Assembly (NCBI RefSeq): GCF_001421515.1
Contig: NZ_LMKM01000012.1
Location: 242,335-306,334 of the forward strand
Direction of reading: 5' to 3'
Source: Pedobacter sp. Leaf216
Lineage (GTDB): Bacteria > Bacteroidota > Bacteroidia > Sphingobacteriales > Sphingobacteriaceae
DNA: 64,000 nucleotides
Program-made: the position numbers and the translations under genes
Shown here: piece by piece, positions 6,006-13,336 of the stretch
How the letters are laid out: each line of letters starts with the position of its first letter
How positions within the stretch are numbered: position 1 is the stretch's first letter
Notes under the pieces: generated by a model
What the model saw: only the letters and a program-made list of their open reading frames with translations
Database searches by the model: none
What the model was told of the DNA's origin: nothing

Positions 6006-6833
6006 ATGATAAAAGTTAGCAACGAAGACCTTTTATTTGCAATAGACGAAAAACCAGAAACCATGTACGTTTGGCATAGCCGGTTTGAAGACCGGTTTCA
6101 AGACCACAGCCATTTAAAAGGACAACTCACTTATGTAGAGGGAGGCATTATTTTTTTGTATACAAAAGAGAAATCCTACTTTTTGCCTGCACGGCACTAT
6201 GTTTGGATTCCGGCCGGAGTAGAACATCATTTACAACACCGGTACCATGCCGCAATTGTTCGGAATATTTATTTTGATACCGCTACGGATGATGAAAATC
6301 CGTTTTATAAACAAATCGGAATATATCCTGTAAATAACCTCTTGTTAGAAATGTTCCTTTTTTCTGAGCGTTGGAATGGAAATATTGTTCCAAAAACGAA
6401 AGAATACGATTTTTTAAATACACTTAAGAATATTTTGCCTGTGGTGAGCGAACACCCCCTCCCTATTGCGTTGCCAACTACAGAAAACCAGCGTTTAAGA
6501 CCTGTGTTACAACATATTGTAAATGGACTTGCAGATGATGGCATGAGTTTGGAAAGTGTGGGCAAAGCGATGGGTTTTAGCGAACGTACCCTATCAAGAT
6601 TATTTCAATCGGCTTTGGATACTTCCTTTTTTCAATACCTAAAACTGGCCCGGATGATAAAGGCAATGGAAAAATTATTGGAAAGCGATGCCACAATCAG
6701 CGAGGTTGCCTACCAGGTGGGCTACAATAGCATTTCTTCTTTCAGTAATACTTTTTATAAGATGGTGGGTAAAAGACCCTCAGAATTTAAAGAATTAAAA
6801 CAATCAACTCTTACTAAAATTAACCTGGTTTAA
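6006..6833 (+). CDS. AraC-family transcriptional regulator
   Basis: A 275-residue regulator. The N-terminal half (about 20-100) is a cupin-like sensor domain with several His residues (HSRFEDRFQDHSHLKG, then HHLQHRYH). The C-terminal 100 residues carry two helix-turn-helix motifs: SLESVGKAMGFSERTLSRLF and ISEVAYQVGYNSISSFSNTF. The second is the conserved AraC signature. It is divergent from the MFS/HlyD/TolC efflux operon and most likely controls it in response to the exported compound; this is inferred from position only. Its 3' end overlaps the convergent cytochrome b5-like gene by 14 bases. Confidence 0.92.
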   Translation: MIKVSNEDLLFAIDEKPETMYVWHSRFEDRFQDHSHLKGQLTYVEGGIIFLYTKEKSYFLPARHYVWIPAGVEHHLQHRYHAAIVRNIYFDTATDDENPFYKQIGIYPVNNLLLEMFLFSERWNGNIVPKTKEYDFLNTLKNILPVVSEHPLPIALPTTENQRLRPVLQHIVNGLADDGMSLESVGKAMGFSERTLSRLFQSALDTSFFQYLKLARMIKAMEKLLESDATISEVAYQVGYNSISSFSNTFYKMVGKRPSEFKELKQSTLTKINLV

Positions 6834-7746: not shown

Positions 7747-8424
7747 TTATCGTCGCTTGTTTTTAAAAACCTCGTACAGGTAAATATTCATCAACAACAA
7801 ACTCATTAAATAAAAATGATCCTCAAAAGGAATCGTGCCCACTCTGAAACCCAGGTTCTGCTTATCGTTATACATCACTATCGGAATGGAAGTCAAAAAT
7901 CCATTAACAACATAAAAAGGTATTAAAGAAACCAAATAAGCCCTGTAAAACCTGTACATAAACCTATACTCAACATTGATGTATTCTACATAAGCCAATA
8001 CTACAAACAAAAAGCCGAAATTAATTAGCGTATACCACCTGCTGTAACCAAAAAAAAGAATGGCCACACAAAGACCAAGAAATAAATTACTTAGTGCCAG
8101 ACTATATTTCTGCAAATCATTTTTCGGGAAATAGGCATTTAAACATTCATAAATAAATACACACGCGTACGGAACCGTTAAAAAGAAGAGCATTTCTTCC
8201 AGGGGCAATCCTAAAAGATTTATTCCAACCAGGTAATCGGGGTTAAACGACCATACATTTAGTTTGGTAAAAAGGATATCCCATACTAAAAACACAATTC
8301 CGGTAATCAGTATTGCAGGAAATATAAATTTCCACTTGCTAAAAAAATGAACCTTTTTATCGAAGGATAAAACCAGCGGAAAGAAAATTACGGCAAGGTT
8401 TATGAATAAATAGGTATAATGCAT
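7747..8424 (-). CDS. crtYcd: Lycopene beta-cyclase, fused two-domain CrtYcd type
   Basis: A 225-residue membrane protein with about seven hydrophobic segments. Two repeated cyclase domains are visible by their acidic motifs: PLEE (74-77) in the first and PFED (199-202) in the second. This matches the heterodimeric CrtYc/CrtYd lycopene cyclases fused into one chain, which close the ionone rings of lycopene to make beta-carotene in the inner membrane. It begins directly after the stop of the upstream unknown gene (stop at 8425, start at 8424), so translation is probably coupled. crtI and crtZ lie nearby. Length is normal for the fused type. Confidence 0.88.
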   Translation of the reverse strand: MHYTYLFINLAVIFFPLVLSFDKKVHFFSKWKFIFPAILITGIVFLVWDILFTKLNVWSFNPDYLVGINLLGLPLEEMLFFLTVPYACVFIYECLNAYFPKNDLQKYSLALSNLFLGLCVAILFFGYSRWYTLINFGFLFVVLAYVEYINVEYRFMYRFYRAYLVSLIPFYVVNGFLTSIPIVMYNDKQNLGFRVGTIPFEDHFYLMSLLLMNIYLYEVFKNKRR

Positions 8425-8955
8425 TTATAGGTGTTTCTTTAAAATTTTAACTTCTGCCGGCGTACACTTTTTACTATCAATCATAAATTTGGCAACGTTT
8501 TTAACCAAGTCTTGGTCGGCAAGGCCAAAATTTTCATTTTGATAATGCTTAACAATTTCCTTTTTATCAACAGCCAAATCTTTACTGAAACCCAAAAATG
8601 AAGGCGTATAAAATTCGATAGAAAAGCGCATAAAACGAATTTCCATATTTTCTTTATCCATATCAATAGCCTTTTGCAGGGTTTTAAGCGAGCTGCCAAC
8701 ATATTTGATCTTGTTATATGGATTCCAGGAATGTTTTGCCTTCAAAGCTTCCAATGTTCCGGTATAGCCCGTAATCAGTGCTGTTTTATTAGGCAATTTA
8801 TTCAATTGCGTAAAAAGAGAATCAGTTAGCTTTGAATTTTCTACCGCTTTTACCATATTGGCTTTTAATACCGCAATTTCTTGAGTAGATAACTGGGCAT
8901 AAGTAATATTGCTTGCCGCTAGGAGCAGAAAACATATAAGGCTTAGTTTAATCAT
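8425..8955 (-). CDS. Unknown exported protein upstream of lycopene cyclase
   Basis: I take the ATG at 8955 (176 residues) rather than the in-frame TTG at 8985, because it puts a clean signal peptide (MIKLSLICFLLLAASNITYA) at the N-terminus. The mature part is helical and charged, with no motif I recognise. It is co-transcribed and translationally coupled with the cyclase gene. Similar small exported proteins occur beside lycopene cyclase genes in related bacteria as I recall, so a link to pigment synthesis is possible but unproven. Confidence 0.75.
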   Translation of the reverse strand: MIKLSLICFLLLAASNITYAQLSTQEIAVLKANMVKAVENSKLTDSLFTQLNKLPNKTALITGYTGTLEALKAKHSWNPYNKIKYVGSSLKTLQKAIDMDKENMEIRFMRFSIEFYTPSFLGFSKDLAVDKKEIVKHYQNENFGLADQDLVKNVAKFMIDSKKCTPAEVKILKKHL

Positions 8956-9203
8956 GTTTAGCCGCAAAGGTAATAAATCTATCAAGAGTTCTCTCGGCAG
9001 ATATCCACTCTTTAATATAACTATATTGATAACGTTAAGAAAACTCGCTCAACCTCCTTAAACCCTTAAAAATAAAAGAGATAACCTGGAGTAATCACCT
9101 AGATTCGACATCCTCTACAAATTCCCCATTGCATTTAAAATAACCGATGCCCTGAATGACAAAAAAACAAAACAAAACAAGATAAATTTCCTTTATTTAC
9201 ACC

Positions 9204-10685
9204 ATGGAGAAAAAACTTCAGGTTACTATAATTGGTGCCGGTTTTGCAGGTTTGGCCGCGTCAGCACTGTTGGCTAAAGATGGTTACGAGGTTACCGTAA
9301 TCGAAAAAAATGGAATGGCAGGCGGCCGGGCCAGAACCTGGGAAAAAGACGGTTTTACTTTTGATATGGGGCCAAGCTGGTACTGGATGCCAGATGTTTT
9401 TGAAAACTATTACAATATTTTTAATAAAACAGCATCCGATTTTTACGAACTCAAAAGATTAAGCCCTTCCTATCGTATTTATTTTGACAAAGATGAACGC
9501 ATTGATGTGCCTGCTACACTGGATGAACTATATGCATTATTTGAAAAGCTAGAGCCTGGCAGCACTAAAAACCTTCAATCTTTTCTCGATCAGGCCAAAT
9601 ATAAATATGATGTTGGCATGAATGAATATGTTTTTAAACCTTCACACAGCGTAATGGAATATTTTGATCCGCGATTGGCCATTAGCGGAGTAAAACTGCA
9701 GTTACTGGGCAACATGCGGAAACATGTACATCAATTGTTTAAAAATGAGCAATTGAGGAAACTTCTGGAATTTCCGGTTTTATTTTTAGGTGCCACACCG
9801 CAAAATACTCCTGCTTTATACAGCCTGATGAACTATGCAGATCTTGTTTTAGGTACCTGGTACCCCATGGGCGGGATGCATAAAATTGTGGCTGCCATGC
9901 AAAACATAGCTGAAGCTGAAGGCGTAAAATTTATTTTTGATACAGAAGTAACCAAAATTGAAGTTCAAAATAACATTGCTGAAGAAGTGATTACTGATAA
10001 GGGCACATTTAAAAGTGACTTTGTAGTGGGCAATGCTGATTATCAACATATAGATCAGCATTTATTTGAAAAACCATACCGCAATTACAGCGAAAAATAT
10101 TGGAACAGTAGAACAATGGCTCCCTCATGCCTTTTATTTTATATTGGGCTTAACACAAAGCTAAAAAACGTTTTACACCACAATTTATTTTTCGATGAAA
10201 ATTTCGATCAACATGCAGAAGAAATCTACACGGATCCGAAATGGCCGGCTAAGCCCTTATTTTATGCCTGCTGCCCTTCAGTTACCGATCCAAGCGTTGC
10301 ACCTCAAGGTTGCGAGAACCTATTTTTTTTAGTTCCGCTTGCACCTGGTTTAAAAGACAGTGAAAGCAAAAGGGAAGAATACTTTAATTTATTACTTAAA
10401 CGCTTCAAAGATTTAACAGGAAACGACATTACTGATCATATTTTATTTAAACGCAGTTACGCTATGGATGATTTTGTTGCAGACTATCATGCCTTTAAAG
10501 GAAATGCGTATGGACTAGCAAACACTTTGAAACAGACCGCTTTCCTAAAACCTAAAATGAAAAGTAAGGTAACAAATTTTTTATATACCGGACAATTAAC
10601 CGTTCCAGGCCCTGGAGTGCCACCTGCAATCATATCTGGACAAGTGGTAGCAAAAGAAATAAAAAAAAAGTTAAAAAAAGCTTGA
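9204..10685 (+). CDS. crtI: Phytoene desaturase (CrtI family)
   Basis: A 493-residue FAD-dependent amine-oxidase-fold enzyme that introduces double bases into phytoene to make lycopene at the membrane. The N-terminal dinucleotide-binding motif is VTIIGAGFAGLAASALLAKD (about 8-27), followed by GGRARTWEKDGFTFDMGPSW, the typical CrtI second motif. The C-terminus has the carotenoid-dehydrogenase signature around TGQLTVPGPGVPPAIISGQ (about 465-483). It is divergent from the cyclase gene pair. Phytoene synthase, which usually follows crtI directly in this group, is absent; instead a candidate small-RNA promoter overlaps the stop codon. Confidence 0.92.
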   Translation: MEKKLQVTIIGAGFAGLAASALLAKDGYEVTVIEKNGMAGGRARTWEKDGFTFDMGPSWYWMPDVFENYYNIFNKTASDFYELKRLSPSYRIYFDKDERIDVPATLDELYALFEKLEPGSTKNLQSFLDQAKYKYDVGMNEYVFKPSHSVMEYFDPRLAISGVKLQLLGNMRKHVHQLFKNEQLRKLLEFPVLFLGATPQNTPALYSLMNYADLVLGTWYPMGGMHKIVAAMQNIAEAEGVKFIFDTEVTKIEVQNNIAEEVITDKGTFKSDFVVGNADYQHIDQHLFEKPYRNYSEKYWNSRTMAPSCLLFYIGLNTKLKNVLHHNLFFDENFDQHAEEIYTDPKWPAKPLFYACCPSVTDPSVAPQGCENLFFLVPLAPGLKDSESKREEYFNLLLKRFKDLTGNDITDHILFKRSYAMDDFVADYHAFKGNAYGLANTLKQTAFLKPKMKSKVTNFLYTGQLTVPGPGVPPAIISGQVVAKEIKKKLKKA

Positions 10686-10710
10686 CAAATTTAAAATTTC
10701 CCTTATCTTT
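10682..10710 (+). promoter_or_regulatory. Bacteroidota-type promoter at the end of crtI
   Basis: TTG (10682-10684), 19 bases, then TATCTTT (10704-10710) fits the TTTG-N19-TAnnTTTG consensus of Bacteroidota primary sigma promoters, with A instead of G in the last place. Transcription would begin near 10717, in a gap without a gene. Confidence 0.45.
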
Positions 10711-10716
10711 ATAACC

Positions 10717-10875
10717 ACAAAACAAAAACACTGCAATAAAGCTTTAAAACACATAATTGTTCGAGGTTTGCATTTGTTTCGAAATAAGAGAGAAGGCGAA
10801 TTGTTGAAAGCAAAAATAAGAATCAACTAACCAAATATATGATAAGCAAAAAGGCCTGATAATTCAGGCCTTTTG
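10717..10875 (+). ncRNA. Candidate small RNA between crtI and the sigma factor gene
   Basis: The promoter at 10682-10710 and the terminator at 10850-10875 would bound a transcript of about 160 bases. It has no convincing reading frame; ATG at 10838 gives only six codons. Possible internal pairings are TTCGA with TCGAA near 10760-10790 and AGCTTT with AAAGC. I do not recognise a family. A long crtI 3' UTR is the alternative. Confidence 0.3.
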
Positions 10876-10876
10876 C
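10850..10876 (+). terminator. Terminator after crtI / candidate small RNA
   Basis: GCAAAAAGGCCTGA and TCAGGCCTTTTGC flank the loop TAAT and are followed by a T-run. The stem is strong and would end transcripts from crtI or from the candidate small RNA. The rest of the gap to 11106 contains only a 10-base inverted repeat, CATGATCCTT (10990-10999) and AAGGATCATG (11086-11095). Confidence 0.8.
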
Positions 10877-11108
10877 TTTTTACAGAAAACTTCAAATATC
10901 CAGTTCAATAGCTGATCGTCATTTAGGCCGGGCAACCAGGCAGAGGTAAATCAATACCATTATCGAAAGCCGTGATTGGCAATTCAATTCATGATCCTTA
11001 AAAAAGATGCTTAGATAATTTTGTCAACCAAATATTAAGATCCGGCAAATAGATTTCTTAACTGCATTGCAATACGCCAGAAATCAAGGATCATGTATAT
11101 AAGGGAAC

Positions 11109-11138
11109 AAAAAAAGGGCCCAGATAAAATCTGAGCCC
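11109..11138 (-). terminator. Terminator after ECF sigma gene
   Basis: On the minus strand GGGCTCAGAT and ATCTGGGCCC pair with one G-T wobble around a 3-base loop and are followed by a T-run. It lies 23 bases after the stop of the sigma factor gene. Confidence 0.75.
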
Positions 11139-11160
11139 CAAGTTTTTCAATCGATGTATC

Positions 11161-11691
11161 TTAAGCCATTTCGCTAACGGCAACTTCTTTAGAGTACGTT
11201 TTAAGGTATTTTTTCAAAATTCCTCTTGCAACGTGAATACGGGTTTTAACTGTTCCGATTGGAATTTCCAACATATCAGCAATTTCGTGGTATTTATAGC
11301 CTTCAAAATAACGGATAAACGGCACATAATATTCTTCAGGTAATTGTGATAATGCTTTATCAATATCACCTAATACAAATTTACTTTCAGCCTGATTTTT
11401 TGTAGCACTATATGAAAGGTTAGCAGAAGAAATATCCTCGCTTTGTGTAATTAATGTATTCGTTTTCACTAAACGGCGGTAGTTATTGATAAAAGTGTTT
11501 TTCATGATGGTAAATAACCAACCTTTTAAATTCGTACCCTCTTTAAACTTATTATAATAAGTGATCGCTTTCAGCATGGTATCCTGAACCAAATCATTAG
11601 CGTCTTCTGCGTCTTTTGTAAAATTTAAAGCATAAGATCTAAGTGATACCGAGTGATGATTAACCAGATGATTGAATTCAAATTTTGTCAT
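11161..11691 (-). CDS. ECF-type RNA polymerase sigma factor
   Basis: I choose the ATG at 11691 (176 residues, MTKFEFNHLVNHH) over an upstream in-frame start at 11724. Region 2 is visible as DANDLVQDTMLKAITYYNKF with the following LKGWLFTIMKNTFINNYRR. Region 4 is ALSQLPEEYYVPFIRYFEG plus the helix-turn-helix YHEIADMLEIPIGTVKTRIH. No anti-sigma gene is adjacent. In Bacteroidota an ECF sigma of this type is often found among carotenoid genes, so it may control pigment synthesis or a stress response; this is inference. Two palindromes and a TAAGTTTG box lie just upstream. Confidence 0.9.
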   Translation of the reverse strand: MTKFEFNHLVNHHSVSLRSYALNFTKDAEDANDLVQDTMLKAITYYNKFKEGTNLKGWLFTIMKNTFINNYRRLVKTNTLITQSEDISSANLSYSATKNQAESKFVLGDIDKALSQLPEEYYVPFIRYFEGYKYHEIADMLEIPIGTVKTRIHVARGILKKYLKTYSKEVAVSEMA

Positions 11692-11755
11692 GATGTTTAG
11701 CTTTAGGGGATTTAAAAAAAACAAATGAATTTATGCTCATTCCCTTATTTGTAAA

Positions 11756-11791
11756 CAAACTTAGTACCAAAAATTTTTGGCATGGTGCCAA
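11756..11791 (-). promoter_or_regulatory. Palindromes and TAAGTTTG box upstream of ECF sigma gene
   Basis: On the minus strand TAAGTTTG (11756-11763) matches the -7 consensus TAnnTTTG. Directly upstream are two overlapping perfect palindromes: CCAAAAATTTTTGG (11767-11780) and TTGGCATGGTGCCAA (11777-11791, 6-base arms, 3-base centre). This placement suits an operator. I see no good -33 element at the expected distance. Confidence 0.45.
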
Positions 11792-11822
11792 AGGCGTACA
11801 ACTACGCTAAGGCATGGTTTCG

Positions 11823-12839
11823 TCACAGAATATTTACTTCTCTTTCTAAAGTGACTCCAAAAGTGGACTTTACACTGTCTATAATCTGTTCAGAAAAAGC
11901 ATACACTTCCGTGCCAGTTGCACCACCATGATTAACTAAAACCAAAGCCTGATTTTTCCAGGTGCCTGTTTGCCCAACAATTTTACCTTTCCAGCCACAT
12001 TGTTCAATCAACCAGCCTGCAGCCAATTTAATTTTATTGTCAGCTGTAGCGTAATGAACCACATCGGGGTGTTTTGCTACAATATCTGCAAACTCATACT
12101 TTTCAATCACAGGATTTTTGAAGAAACTCCCGGCGTTTCCAATGGTTGATGGATCTGGCAATTTGCTTACGCGGATATGTGATACAGCCGCCGATACATC
12201 TGCAATAGTTGGATTTTCGATCCCTCTATTATGCAATTCTGTTTCGATTGCACCATAAGAAGTATTTATTTTCGCTTCGGAAGAAAGGCGGAACGTAACA
12301 GATGTAATAATATATTGGCCTTTTAATTCGCCTTTAAAAATACTTTCACGGTAGCCGAAGTGGCAATCTTCATAATTAAAAGTTTTAATTTGCCCGGTGC
12401 TGATCTCAAATGCAGTACAGCTTTCAAAAACATCTTTAAGCTCTACCCCATATGCACCAATATTTTGTATGGGCGATGCGCCTACCGTGCCTGGAATCAA
12501 ACTTAAATTTTCTACACCAGCAAAATGATGCTGAACACAGTAGTTTACAAAATCATTCCAAACTTCTCCGGCACCTGCAGTTACGAGGACCTTATCTGCA
12601 AGAACCACTGATTCTATGCCCATAATACTGATTTTGATTACCAAACCATCGTAATCTTGGGTAAACAACACATTGCTGCCTCCACCTACAATCAGAAGTT
12701 TTTGAGATTTTACCAGCTCATTTTCAAATAATTTAACCAGGTCTTTTTCAGCAAATACCTCTGCGAAATATTTAGCTTTAACATCGATACCAAATGAATT
12801 GTATGGTTTTAGCGAAATATTTTCCTGAATCTGAAGCAT
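11823..12839 (-). CDS. murB: UDP-N-acetylmuramate dehydrogenase MurB
   Basis: A 338-residue cytosolic FAD enzyme that reduces UDP-GlcNAc-enolpyruvate with NADPH to UDP-MurNAc in peptidoglycan synthesis. The FAD-binding part has IVGGGSNVLF (about 51-60) and the segment around NLSLIPGTVGASPIQNIGAY. The YRESIFK segment and the catalytic Ser in GNAGSFFKNPVI are present, which with the overall length fits type I (E. coli-like) MurB. Its position among carotenoid genes seems incidental. It may be read with the lipoprotein and crtZ genes upstream. Confidence 0.95.
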   Translation of the reverse strand: MLQIQENISLKPYNSFGIDVKAKYFAEVFAEKDLVKLFENELVKSQKLLIVGGGSNVLFTQDYDGLVIKISIMGIESVVLADKVLVTAGAGEVWNDFVNYCVQHHFAGVENLSLIPGTVGASPIQNIGAYGVELKDVFESCTAFEISTGQIKTFNYEDCHFGYRESIFKGELKGQYIITSVTFRLSSEAKINTSYGAIETELHNRGIENPTIADVSAAVSHIRVSKLPDPSTIGNAGSFFKNPVIEKYEFADIVAKHPDVVHYATADNKIKLAAGWLIEQCGWKGKIVGQTGTWKNQALVLVNHGGATGTEVYAFSEQIIDSVKSTFGVTLEREVNIL

Positions 12840-12880
12840 AGTGATTTTATGTTATGCTGCAAAAGTAAAATAAAAATTAA

Positions 12881-13336
12881 TTAAGGAACGATTTTGGTAA
12901 TCTCCTTATCAAAATTAAAACTCAACCCCTTCGCTTTCGCATCTTCTGATTTTACCCCAGAAAGTTTCCAGCCAATAAATTCTGGTTTGGTTTTGGCCAG
13001 ATCCAGCAGGCGGTACCGCTCTTTAGTCAATTGCGCGCTGATCAATCCTACACTATCAGATTCTTCCTGACTTAAATGTTCTATTTCACTTTCAAGCAAA
13101 GCCAAAGTTGTATCCAATTTATTTCCTTTTTTTAAGCTATCGGTATAAGCTTTAGGAGAAATAGTATAGAGACTATCTAAACTTGCTTGATCAAAATCCA
13201 GGTCTTCATCACGGTTATCATAGCGGGCTTCTACAAGTGCAATGGCGCGATCTTTATTGGTTTTAGTTTTCTTACCACATGAATACAATAACAATGAAGC
13301 AGTACAAATAAGAATGATCAGAGAATAATTTTTCAT
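12881..13336 (-). CDS. Unknown lipoprotein
   Basis: A 151-residue protein with a lipoprotein signal peptide; the lipobox is LLLYSCGKK with Cys near residue 20. The mature part is highly charged and rich in Asp, Lys and Leu, probably helical, without a family I recognise. It sits between crtZ (8 bases upstream) and murB, so it is probably co-transcribed with crtZ. Function unknown; small lipoproteins like this are common in the group. Confidence 0.75.
   Translation of the reverse strand: MKNYSLIILICTASLLLYSCGKKTKTNKDRAIALVEARYDNRDEDLDFDQASLDSLYTISPKAYTDSLKKGNKLDTTLALLESEIEHLSQEESDSVGLISAQLTKERYRLLDLAKTKPEFIGWKLSGVKSEDAKAKGLSFNFDKEITKIVP

Follow-up and report, generated by a model that had tools for sequence, protein, structure and literature searches.

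What is encoded between the end of the carotenoid gene crtI and the sigma factor gene that converges on it in Pedobacter sp. Leaf216? Bacteroidota small RNAs have been studied mainly in gut Bacteroides. A first-pass annotation of the window (the whole stretch of 64,000 nucleotides analysed here) had proposed that a regulatory RNA, or else a 3' UTR that is made independently, lies directly behind crtI. Our results support that reading, in that the element has a putative promoter of its own and recurs across the genus. It is very probable that bases 10682-10881 form a conserved non-coding RNA gene of one Pedobacter lineage, here called RNA-A, and that the RNA exists. The features of the locus are as follows.

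9204..10685, plus strand: crtI, encoding the bifunctional phytoene desaturase CrtID; parent gene of RNA-A, with the RNA-A promoter in its 3' end
10682..10710, plus strand: predicted promoter TTG-N19-TATCTTT overlapping the crtI stop, near the Bacteroidota primary-sigma type
10715..10880, plus strand: RNA-A, predicted non-coding RNA, from alignments and a covariance model
10715..10727, plus strand: conserved 5' block CCACAAAACAAAA, its first 10 alignment columns invariant in 26/26
10771..10812, plus strand: second conserved block, containing GTTTCGAAATAAGAGAGAAGG, with 90.0% mean identity to the window over 25 relatives
10819..10840, plus strand: invariant block AGAATCAACTAACCAAATATAT (26/26), mostly unpaired and computed to pair with the RNA-B seed (below)
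10849..10881, plus strand: intrinsic terminator common to RNA-A and any crtI read-through, from a terminator scan and stem changes
11161..11691, minus strand: ECF sigma factor gene, convergent to crtI and RNA-A (Pfam Sigma70_r2/r4_2)

A conserved element at the end of crtI

The crtI product is identified as CrtID by NCBIfam NF058655 (744 bits against a cutoff of 640), also matches Pfam Amino_oxidase, and is encoded near a gene with a lycopene cyclase domain (7747-8424). The first-pass annotation had read a TTG-N19-TATCTTT promoter over the crtI stop, a terminator behind the gene and no gene between the two, and all three observations hold. The promoter consists of TTG at 10682-10684, a 19-base spacer and TATCTTT at 10704-10710, its TTG overlapping the TGA stop codon at 10683-10685. 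The terminator stem at 10849-10874, which is the first terminator-like site 3' of crtI, has 11 pairs (5 G-C) and a loop of 4, followed by GCTTTTT. The interval from crtI to the ECF gene contains no ORF of at least 60 aa, and the longest frames overlapping the stretch reach at most 51 aa. A further terminator-like site at 11115-11139 belongs to the convergent ECF gene. Of the 46 named loci (described below), 41 have that gene on the far side of RNA-A, as far as the sequence of each reaches. Its product keeps 94-99% identity in the other RNA-A loci where the gene is present, which is higher than for crtI, and the sole NCBIfam model that it passes, with 25 models shown, is that of the general sigma70-ECF superfamily.

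Neither signal is convincing by itself. The consensus for sigma-ABfr, as quoted in PMC7366714, is TTTG near -33 and TAnnTTTG at -7; here the elements are CTTG and TATCTTTA, each one base off consensus, and the arrangement is conserved. Chance predicts 12.0 copies of the TTG-N19-TATCTTT motif in the window, where 9 are found, a level that rules out any significance drawn from the motif alone. An E. coli-type scan of 8800-13200 returned 15 promoter-like sites where 14.5 were expected, and 6 terminator-like ones for an expectation of 3.9 (sd 1.8). With counts so near chance, neither motif alone constitutes proof. RNA-A stands above chance because it is conserved in relatives and because this conservation collapses right after the terminator.

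When 10700-10890 was compared by BLAST with 99 relatives (own genome included; 60 from the same genus), 25 long matches of 80-100% identity were obtained, the window's own among them, together with a diverged copy in G005. The first-pass annotation had named conservation in relatives as a check; RNA-A is kept in 26/26 BLAST-found relatives, nearly full-length in 25 and diverged in the middle in G005, as well as in the wider genus. Two other loci were rejected as relatives (L039, where the match stands before a hairpin, and L034), both matches being short. Each of the 26 loci has crtI directly upstream, and a crtI of 77% identity or more is found in exactly those 26 of the 99 genomes that have RNA-A. 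No RNA-A-like element was found behind crtI in G038, which has the next closest crtI (66%) and, beyond it, an ECF gene 92% identical.

Averaged over the 25 other relatives, identity with the window copy delimits the element. The promoter (10682-10717) reaches 98.4%, the 5' block 94.6%, the middle of RNA-A 79.3% and the 3' block (10820-10848) 99.2%, while the terminator, at 85.2%, falls below both the promoter and the AGAATCAACTAACCAAATATAT block. Third positions of crtI average 68.1%, and past the terminator (10885-10985) identity drops to 33.3%. Within the second conserved block the minimum among the 25 relatives is 52%, and the block is lost in G005 (L026).

A covariance model (R1) built from the 26 BLAST-found copies located RNA-A in 57 of the 145 genus genomes analysed, with one copy each; the covariance searches ran with stricter filters, which lose weak matches, for RNA-A as for RNA-B. 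The exact 22-mer AGAATCAACTAACCAAATATAT was also scanned through a one-genome-per-species collection (84,980 species by its own description) and was present in 46 contigs, all Pedobacter but one labelled as a Sphingobacteriaceae MAG. In 45 of these 46 named loci a same-strand crtI is present no more than 220 nt upstream; in the other, L308, the sequence starts 192 bases before the block. As the named loci were fetched by the block, its invariance among them is circular; the evidence for it comes instead from the copies found by BLAST (26) and by the model (57). The conservation of the promoter there is not circular, and TTGAC-N17-TATCTTTAT is present in 46/46, with a terminator pattern detected in 43/46. 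The named loci overlap the 145 genus genomes, many being of the same species, and the two sets are not independent.

Five terminator pairs show two-sided changes in one relative or more, one of the five standing at 14 G-C to 12 A-U. A small hairpin upstream has one such pair, and the covariation term amounts to a modest -0.22 kcal/mol. A conserved terminator placed behind crtI is what one would expect if the region gave rise to no RNA of its own and were simply a 3' UTR serving to protect or terminate the crtI mRNA. We consider this improbable, since termination needs neither a conserved promoter nor an unpaired block, and the terminator is less conserved than either. Conservation delineates a putative promoter, body and terminator, and RNA-A is presumably transcribed from that promoter.

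The predicted RNA is roughly 165 nt long, its 5' end being an estimate from the -33/-7 spacing and its 3' end being placed at the terminator. Its fold z-score of -3.65 owes much to the terminator. The 22-nt block AGAATCAACTAACCAAATATAT, whose 15-nt core AATCAACTAACCAAA was found in 57/57 RNA-A copies, has a mean probability of being unpaired of 0.75, against 0.50 across the whole RNA (47 sequences). In Rfam 15, no family reaches its gathering score anywhere in the window except tRNA at 539-612; families retrieved at low threshold on the RNA-A locus were rejected as far below their cutoffs, several of them centred on the terminator hairpin. That the element encodes a small protein is highly improbable. 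A 20-aa TTG frame at 10768-10830 stays open in the window and many of its close relatives, but L014, L015 and L020-L026 have lost it or carry a stop in it; a 6-aa frame from the ATG in AGAATCAACTAACCAAATATAT ends as such in just 9 of 26 relatives, and the invariance of the element ignores codon positions.

A predicted partner RNA with a complementary seed

The own genome was searched for complements of AGAATCAACTAACCAAATATAT with up to 3 mismatches, which gave 28 sites against 8 for the reversed pattern. Among the 20 of these 28 sites that were examined, no clear antisense mRNA target was found, many of the sites being sense-leader copies of the motif or chance-like, and direct mRNA targets read from this search were rejected. 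Two places on contig C7 contain a second predicted RNA, designated RNA-B. The two copies lie 3.3 kb apart (L090:3274-3386 and 6570-6681; G000 C7:197773-197885 and 201069-201180), each with its own ECF-like promoter, and close pairs also occur in G027, G034, G125 and G127.

RNA-B has a uniform layout, consisting of AAACAAT-N13-CGTTTA, which we take to be an ECF-type promoter, a hairpin TTCCGG..CCGGAA, the single-stranded segment GTTTGGTTAGTTGATT and a terminator. AAACAAT, CGTTTA and GTTTGGTTAGTTGA are invariant in 13/13 aligned copies. A covariance model matched 29 of the 145 genomes; the match in G159 (E 3.3e-4; locus L192) was dropped for want of the seed, and the remaining 28 genomes, with 35 copies, all carry RNA-A. 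RNA-B thereby accompanies 28 of the 57 RNA-A genomes, leaving 29 without a match, and the Fisher P of 2e-14 for this co-occurrence is overstated since both RNAs follow one clade. The 13-nt seed TTTGGTTAGTTGA is kept in 27 of the 29 copies examined (of 35). In the diverged copies of G141, G048 and G142 the promoter has changed, as has the seed in G141 and G142. Rfam gave no match at RNA-B (E up to 2). By these features RNA-B is a predicted independent, conserved sRNA.

The AAACAAT-N13-CGTTTA promoter occurs exactly at three sites in the own genome, namely the two RNA-B copies and a third RNA, RNA-C, considered below. A search for a promoter regulon with one mismatch was uninformative beyond these three (37 sites against 28 for the reversed control). 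The ECF factor next to RNA-A was considered as the regulator of RNA-B and set aside: the 64-kb window contains no AAACAA-N12..18-CGTTTA site, and nothing ties the two.

The computed duplex between AGAATCAACTAACCAAATATAT and the RNA-B seed comprises 17 contiguous pairs (one G-U) and, after a mismatch, 4 more, at -26.6 kcal/mol; over 29 RNA-B copies the energy ranges from -19.1 to -26.6 kcal/mol. Binding of the full RNAs is computed at -27.3, against -9.6 (sd 2.9) for dinucleotide-shuffled RNA-B, with none of 200 shuffles reaching that low. Since RNA-B came from the complement search itself, this match is a posteriori. An exact search for the 15-mer complement in the 145 genomes returned 105 sites, of which 57 are in RNA-A, 26 in RNA-B and 22 elsewhere, with 9 of the 22 in the 88 RNA-A-negative genomes and some of the 22 being leaders; the reversed 15-mer gave 15 sites. 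As a side observation, AACCAC at 10713-10718, the 5' edge of RNA-A, is complementary to an invariant GTGGTT loop of RNA-B; this may be a second contact or chance, and AACCAC may sit partly upstream of the RNA-A start.

The same duplex could form in cis, the crtI 3' UTR being bound by RNA-B or its kin in a way that sets the stability of the crtI mRNA and makes carotenoid synthesis the target of an sRNA with an ECF-like promoter. There is no terminator-like site from the crtI stop to 10849, so read-through from crtI should include the block, and the block stands directly behind crtI in 26/26 and 45/46 loci. Against this, such a 3' UTR would have no need of its own promoter, which is conserved at 98%, and on balance we think pairing in cis unlikely.

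Possible leader mimicry and a set of related seeds

The block AGAATCAACTAACCAAATATAT resembles a Pedobacter gene leader, CAACTAACCAAAT..ATGA, so that RNA-A looks, as far as its sequence goes, like a decoy leader, ATG included. Exact TTTGGTTAGTT occurs at 26 sites in the own genome, against 13 for the reversed pattern; one is in RNA-A, two are in RNA-B, one is in RNA-C, 12 are antisense to leaders and 10 are other. The 12 leader sites lie 4-40 nt before the ATG of an ORF of at least 145 codons, as far as the sequence of each reaches, the control here being the reversed pattern and its number of sites. Genes behind such leaders encode TonB-dependent plug proteins (L048, L053 and L055 in the own genome, L194 and L195 in another), a ferritin-like protein (L051) and an H+-pyrophosphatase (L038), the leaders of L048, L051 and L055 being near rather than exact matches. 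The leader type of the TonB/SusC plug (L048, L053), ferritin-like and H+-pyrophosphatase genes is AACTAACCAAAT.

This resemblance could instead mean a shared ligand, such as the ribosome, S1 or an RRM protein. On such an account RNA-A would act in trans or bind protein, its block acting on mRNAs, on S1 or on an RbpB-like RRM protein, and the match to RNA-B would be incidental, both RNAs referring to one leader sequence. The leader-like character of the block (12 of the 26 own-genome sites) speaks for it, as does the core, which is no less invariant where RNA-A occurs without an RNA-B match (29 genomes, among them G005, whose RNA-A is diverged elsewhere). The match to RNA-B, however, extends over 17 pairs and exceeds the generic leader core; outside RNA-A, 26 of the exact 15-mer sites are in RNA-B and 22 in all other places; and the own-genome sites examined include no clear antisense mRNA target. 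We regard this account as rather unlikely. Since the core is fixed in those 29 genomes, the block must serve something more general than RNA-B, either the sponging of RNAs of the RNA-C and RNA-D types through the shorter AACCAAA core or the binding of a protein.

RNA-C has the promoter of RNA-B in the own genome (L216, minus strand; G000 C14:48108) and a related seed, TAGTTTGTTTGGTT in aligned relatives. Strong matches, defined by our own cut of E below 1e-9 and with L273 left out of the locus reading, occur in 46 genomes, all with RNA-A; weak matches (E 4e-6 to 8e-4) in six RNA-A-negative genomes are counted apart. Its computed binding to RNA-A is weaker than that of RNA-B (-14.9, with 10 of 200 shuffles as low), and its seed pairs with AGAATCAACTAACCAAATATAT at -18.2 in the own-genome form and at -12.4 in the extra-T form of most other copies.

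The 14-mer TAGTTTGTTTGGTT itself is present in at least 126 of the 145 genomes, against 0-2 occurrences per genome for a reversed control. Thirty of its loci were returned, which by a crude rule divide into 18 sRNA-like with a terminator, 6 leaders and 6 other; four of the latter (L367, L368, L373 and L391) are RNA-C-like by eye. Many TAGTTTGTTTGGTT loci represent a fourth type, RNA-D, defined by TTCATAAATAGTTTGTTTGGTTTATT plus a terminator and occurring both with and without RNA-A; in the examples L396, L400, L402, L409, L388 and L395 it is short, with an anti-leader seed before the terminator. RNA-D was present in 6/6 genomes sampled from the 11 RNA-A genomes that have neither RNA-B nor a strong RNA-C match, and it is computed to pair weakly with the RNA-A block (-10.2 kcal/mol). 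Rfam gave no match at the RNA-C and RNA-D elements of eight loci (E up to 0.1).

Three side observations concern these loci and their surroundings. By eye, GTGG stands in many hairpin loops of RNA-B, RNA-C and their relatives in RNA-A-negative genomes. Sub-threshold TPP riboswitch matches (L395:2765-2910, 41.4 bits; L388:2836-3014, 34.7 bits; cutoff 54.3) stand about 1.3 kb from RNA-D copies. The own genome also has a repeat array (L042/L043; G000 C9, about 113.2-116.7 kb) of 'CGTCCTGCTGAACT...GTTTCAGTCATTCACA' units with an N.

A sponge model and its relation to known RNAs

In the mechanism that we propose, a promoter of the primary-sigma type at the crtI stop would give rise to an RNA-A of about 165 nt ending at the terminator behind crtI. 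Its 22-nt leader-mimic block would serve as bait, pairing with the seed of RNA-B. The free seed GTTTGGTTAGTTGATT would otherwise pair with real leaders, those of TonB/SusC transporters and others, and RNA-A would titrate RNA-B and perhaps, more weakly, other sRNAs that share the seed (RNA-C, RNA-D). The capacity for an RNA-A:RNA-B duplex is computed; titration, the direction of regulation and the targets are suggested by the conserved complementarity.

Each part of this model has precedent. sRNAs made from promoters at the ends of coding genes are known, DapZ and MicL among them, and the conserved promoter of DapZ lies just upstream of the dapB stop codon, according to the part of PMC9438474 available to us. 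RNA-A has a conserved promoter at the end of a coding sequence and a terminator in common with its parent gene. It resembles DapZ, MicL and MicX in that the promoter lies at or inside the end of the parent gene and the 3' end coincides with the parent terminator; it differs in that those RNAs come from other bacteria and unrelated parent genes, whereas the RNA-A promoter is near the Bacteroidota type and overlaps the stop.

The same part of that source describes 3'-end sponges, SroC and SkatA, which titrate GcvB or PrrF1; SkatA protects its parent mRNA, and SroC is processed from a longer transcript (PMC9438474). What RNA-A has in common with such sponges is a computed base-pairing with the seed of another sRNA, the sponging itself being reported for SroC and SkatA and proposed for RNA-A. 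Unlike SroC, RNA-A is predicted to have its own promoter.

Within the phylum the closest systems are the FopS and GibS sRNAs of Bacteroides thetaiotaomicron, of which the FopS sRNAs repress SusC-like genes at translation starts (PMC11697453, in the part available). RNA-B, RNA-C and RNA-D are like FopS in being short, with a single-stranded seed, a terminator and seeds aimed at translation starts; the likeness to FopS lies in the layout and the targets as described there. RNA-A itself was rejected as a member of the FopS family, since it is not multicopy and has no anti-leader seed; it is a single-copy RNA that carries the complement of one. In the available part of PMC7366714, UTR-derived sRNAs are reported from B. 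thetaiotaomicron and sponges there are named as a concept only. Among the matches listed in literature searches on Pedobacter, Sphingobacteriaceae, crtI sRNAs and sponges, none describes RNA-A in the portion of text given.

RNA-A is a new RNA, of already known kinds. That it is an independently transcribed, DapZ-like 3'-end sRNA sponging FopS-like sRNAs is to us a credible reading, falling just short of an even chance. The fuller statement, in which a crtI-borne leader-mimic RNA sponges FopS-like sRNAs that have anti-leader seeds and ECF-like promoters, is put forward more tentatively.

These predictions give an environmental genus a conserved 3'-end RNA and a partner sRNA with a complementary conserved seed, within what appears to be a genus-wide set of sRNAs in Pedobacter with related anti-leader seeds. 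If the sponge reading is true, RNA-A would be a sponge RNA in Bacteroidota, and control by RNA titration would extend to a phylum whose described RNA-binding regulator, RbpB, is an RRM protein (PMC11697453, in the part available). RNA-RNA titration would then couple the expression of a pigment gene to the translation of outer-membrane transporters.
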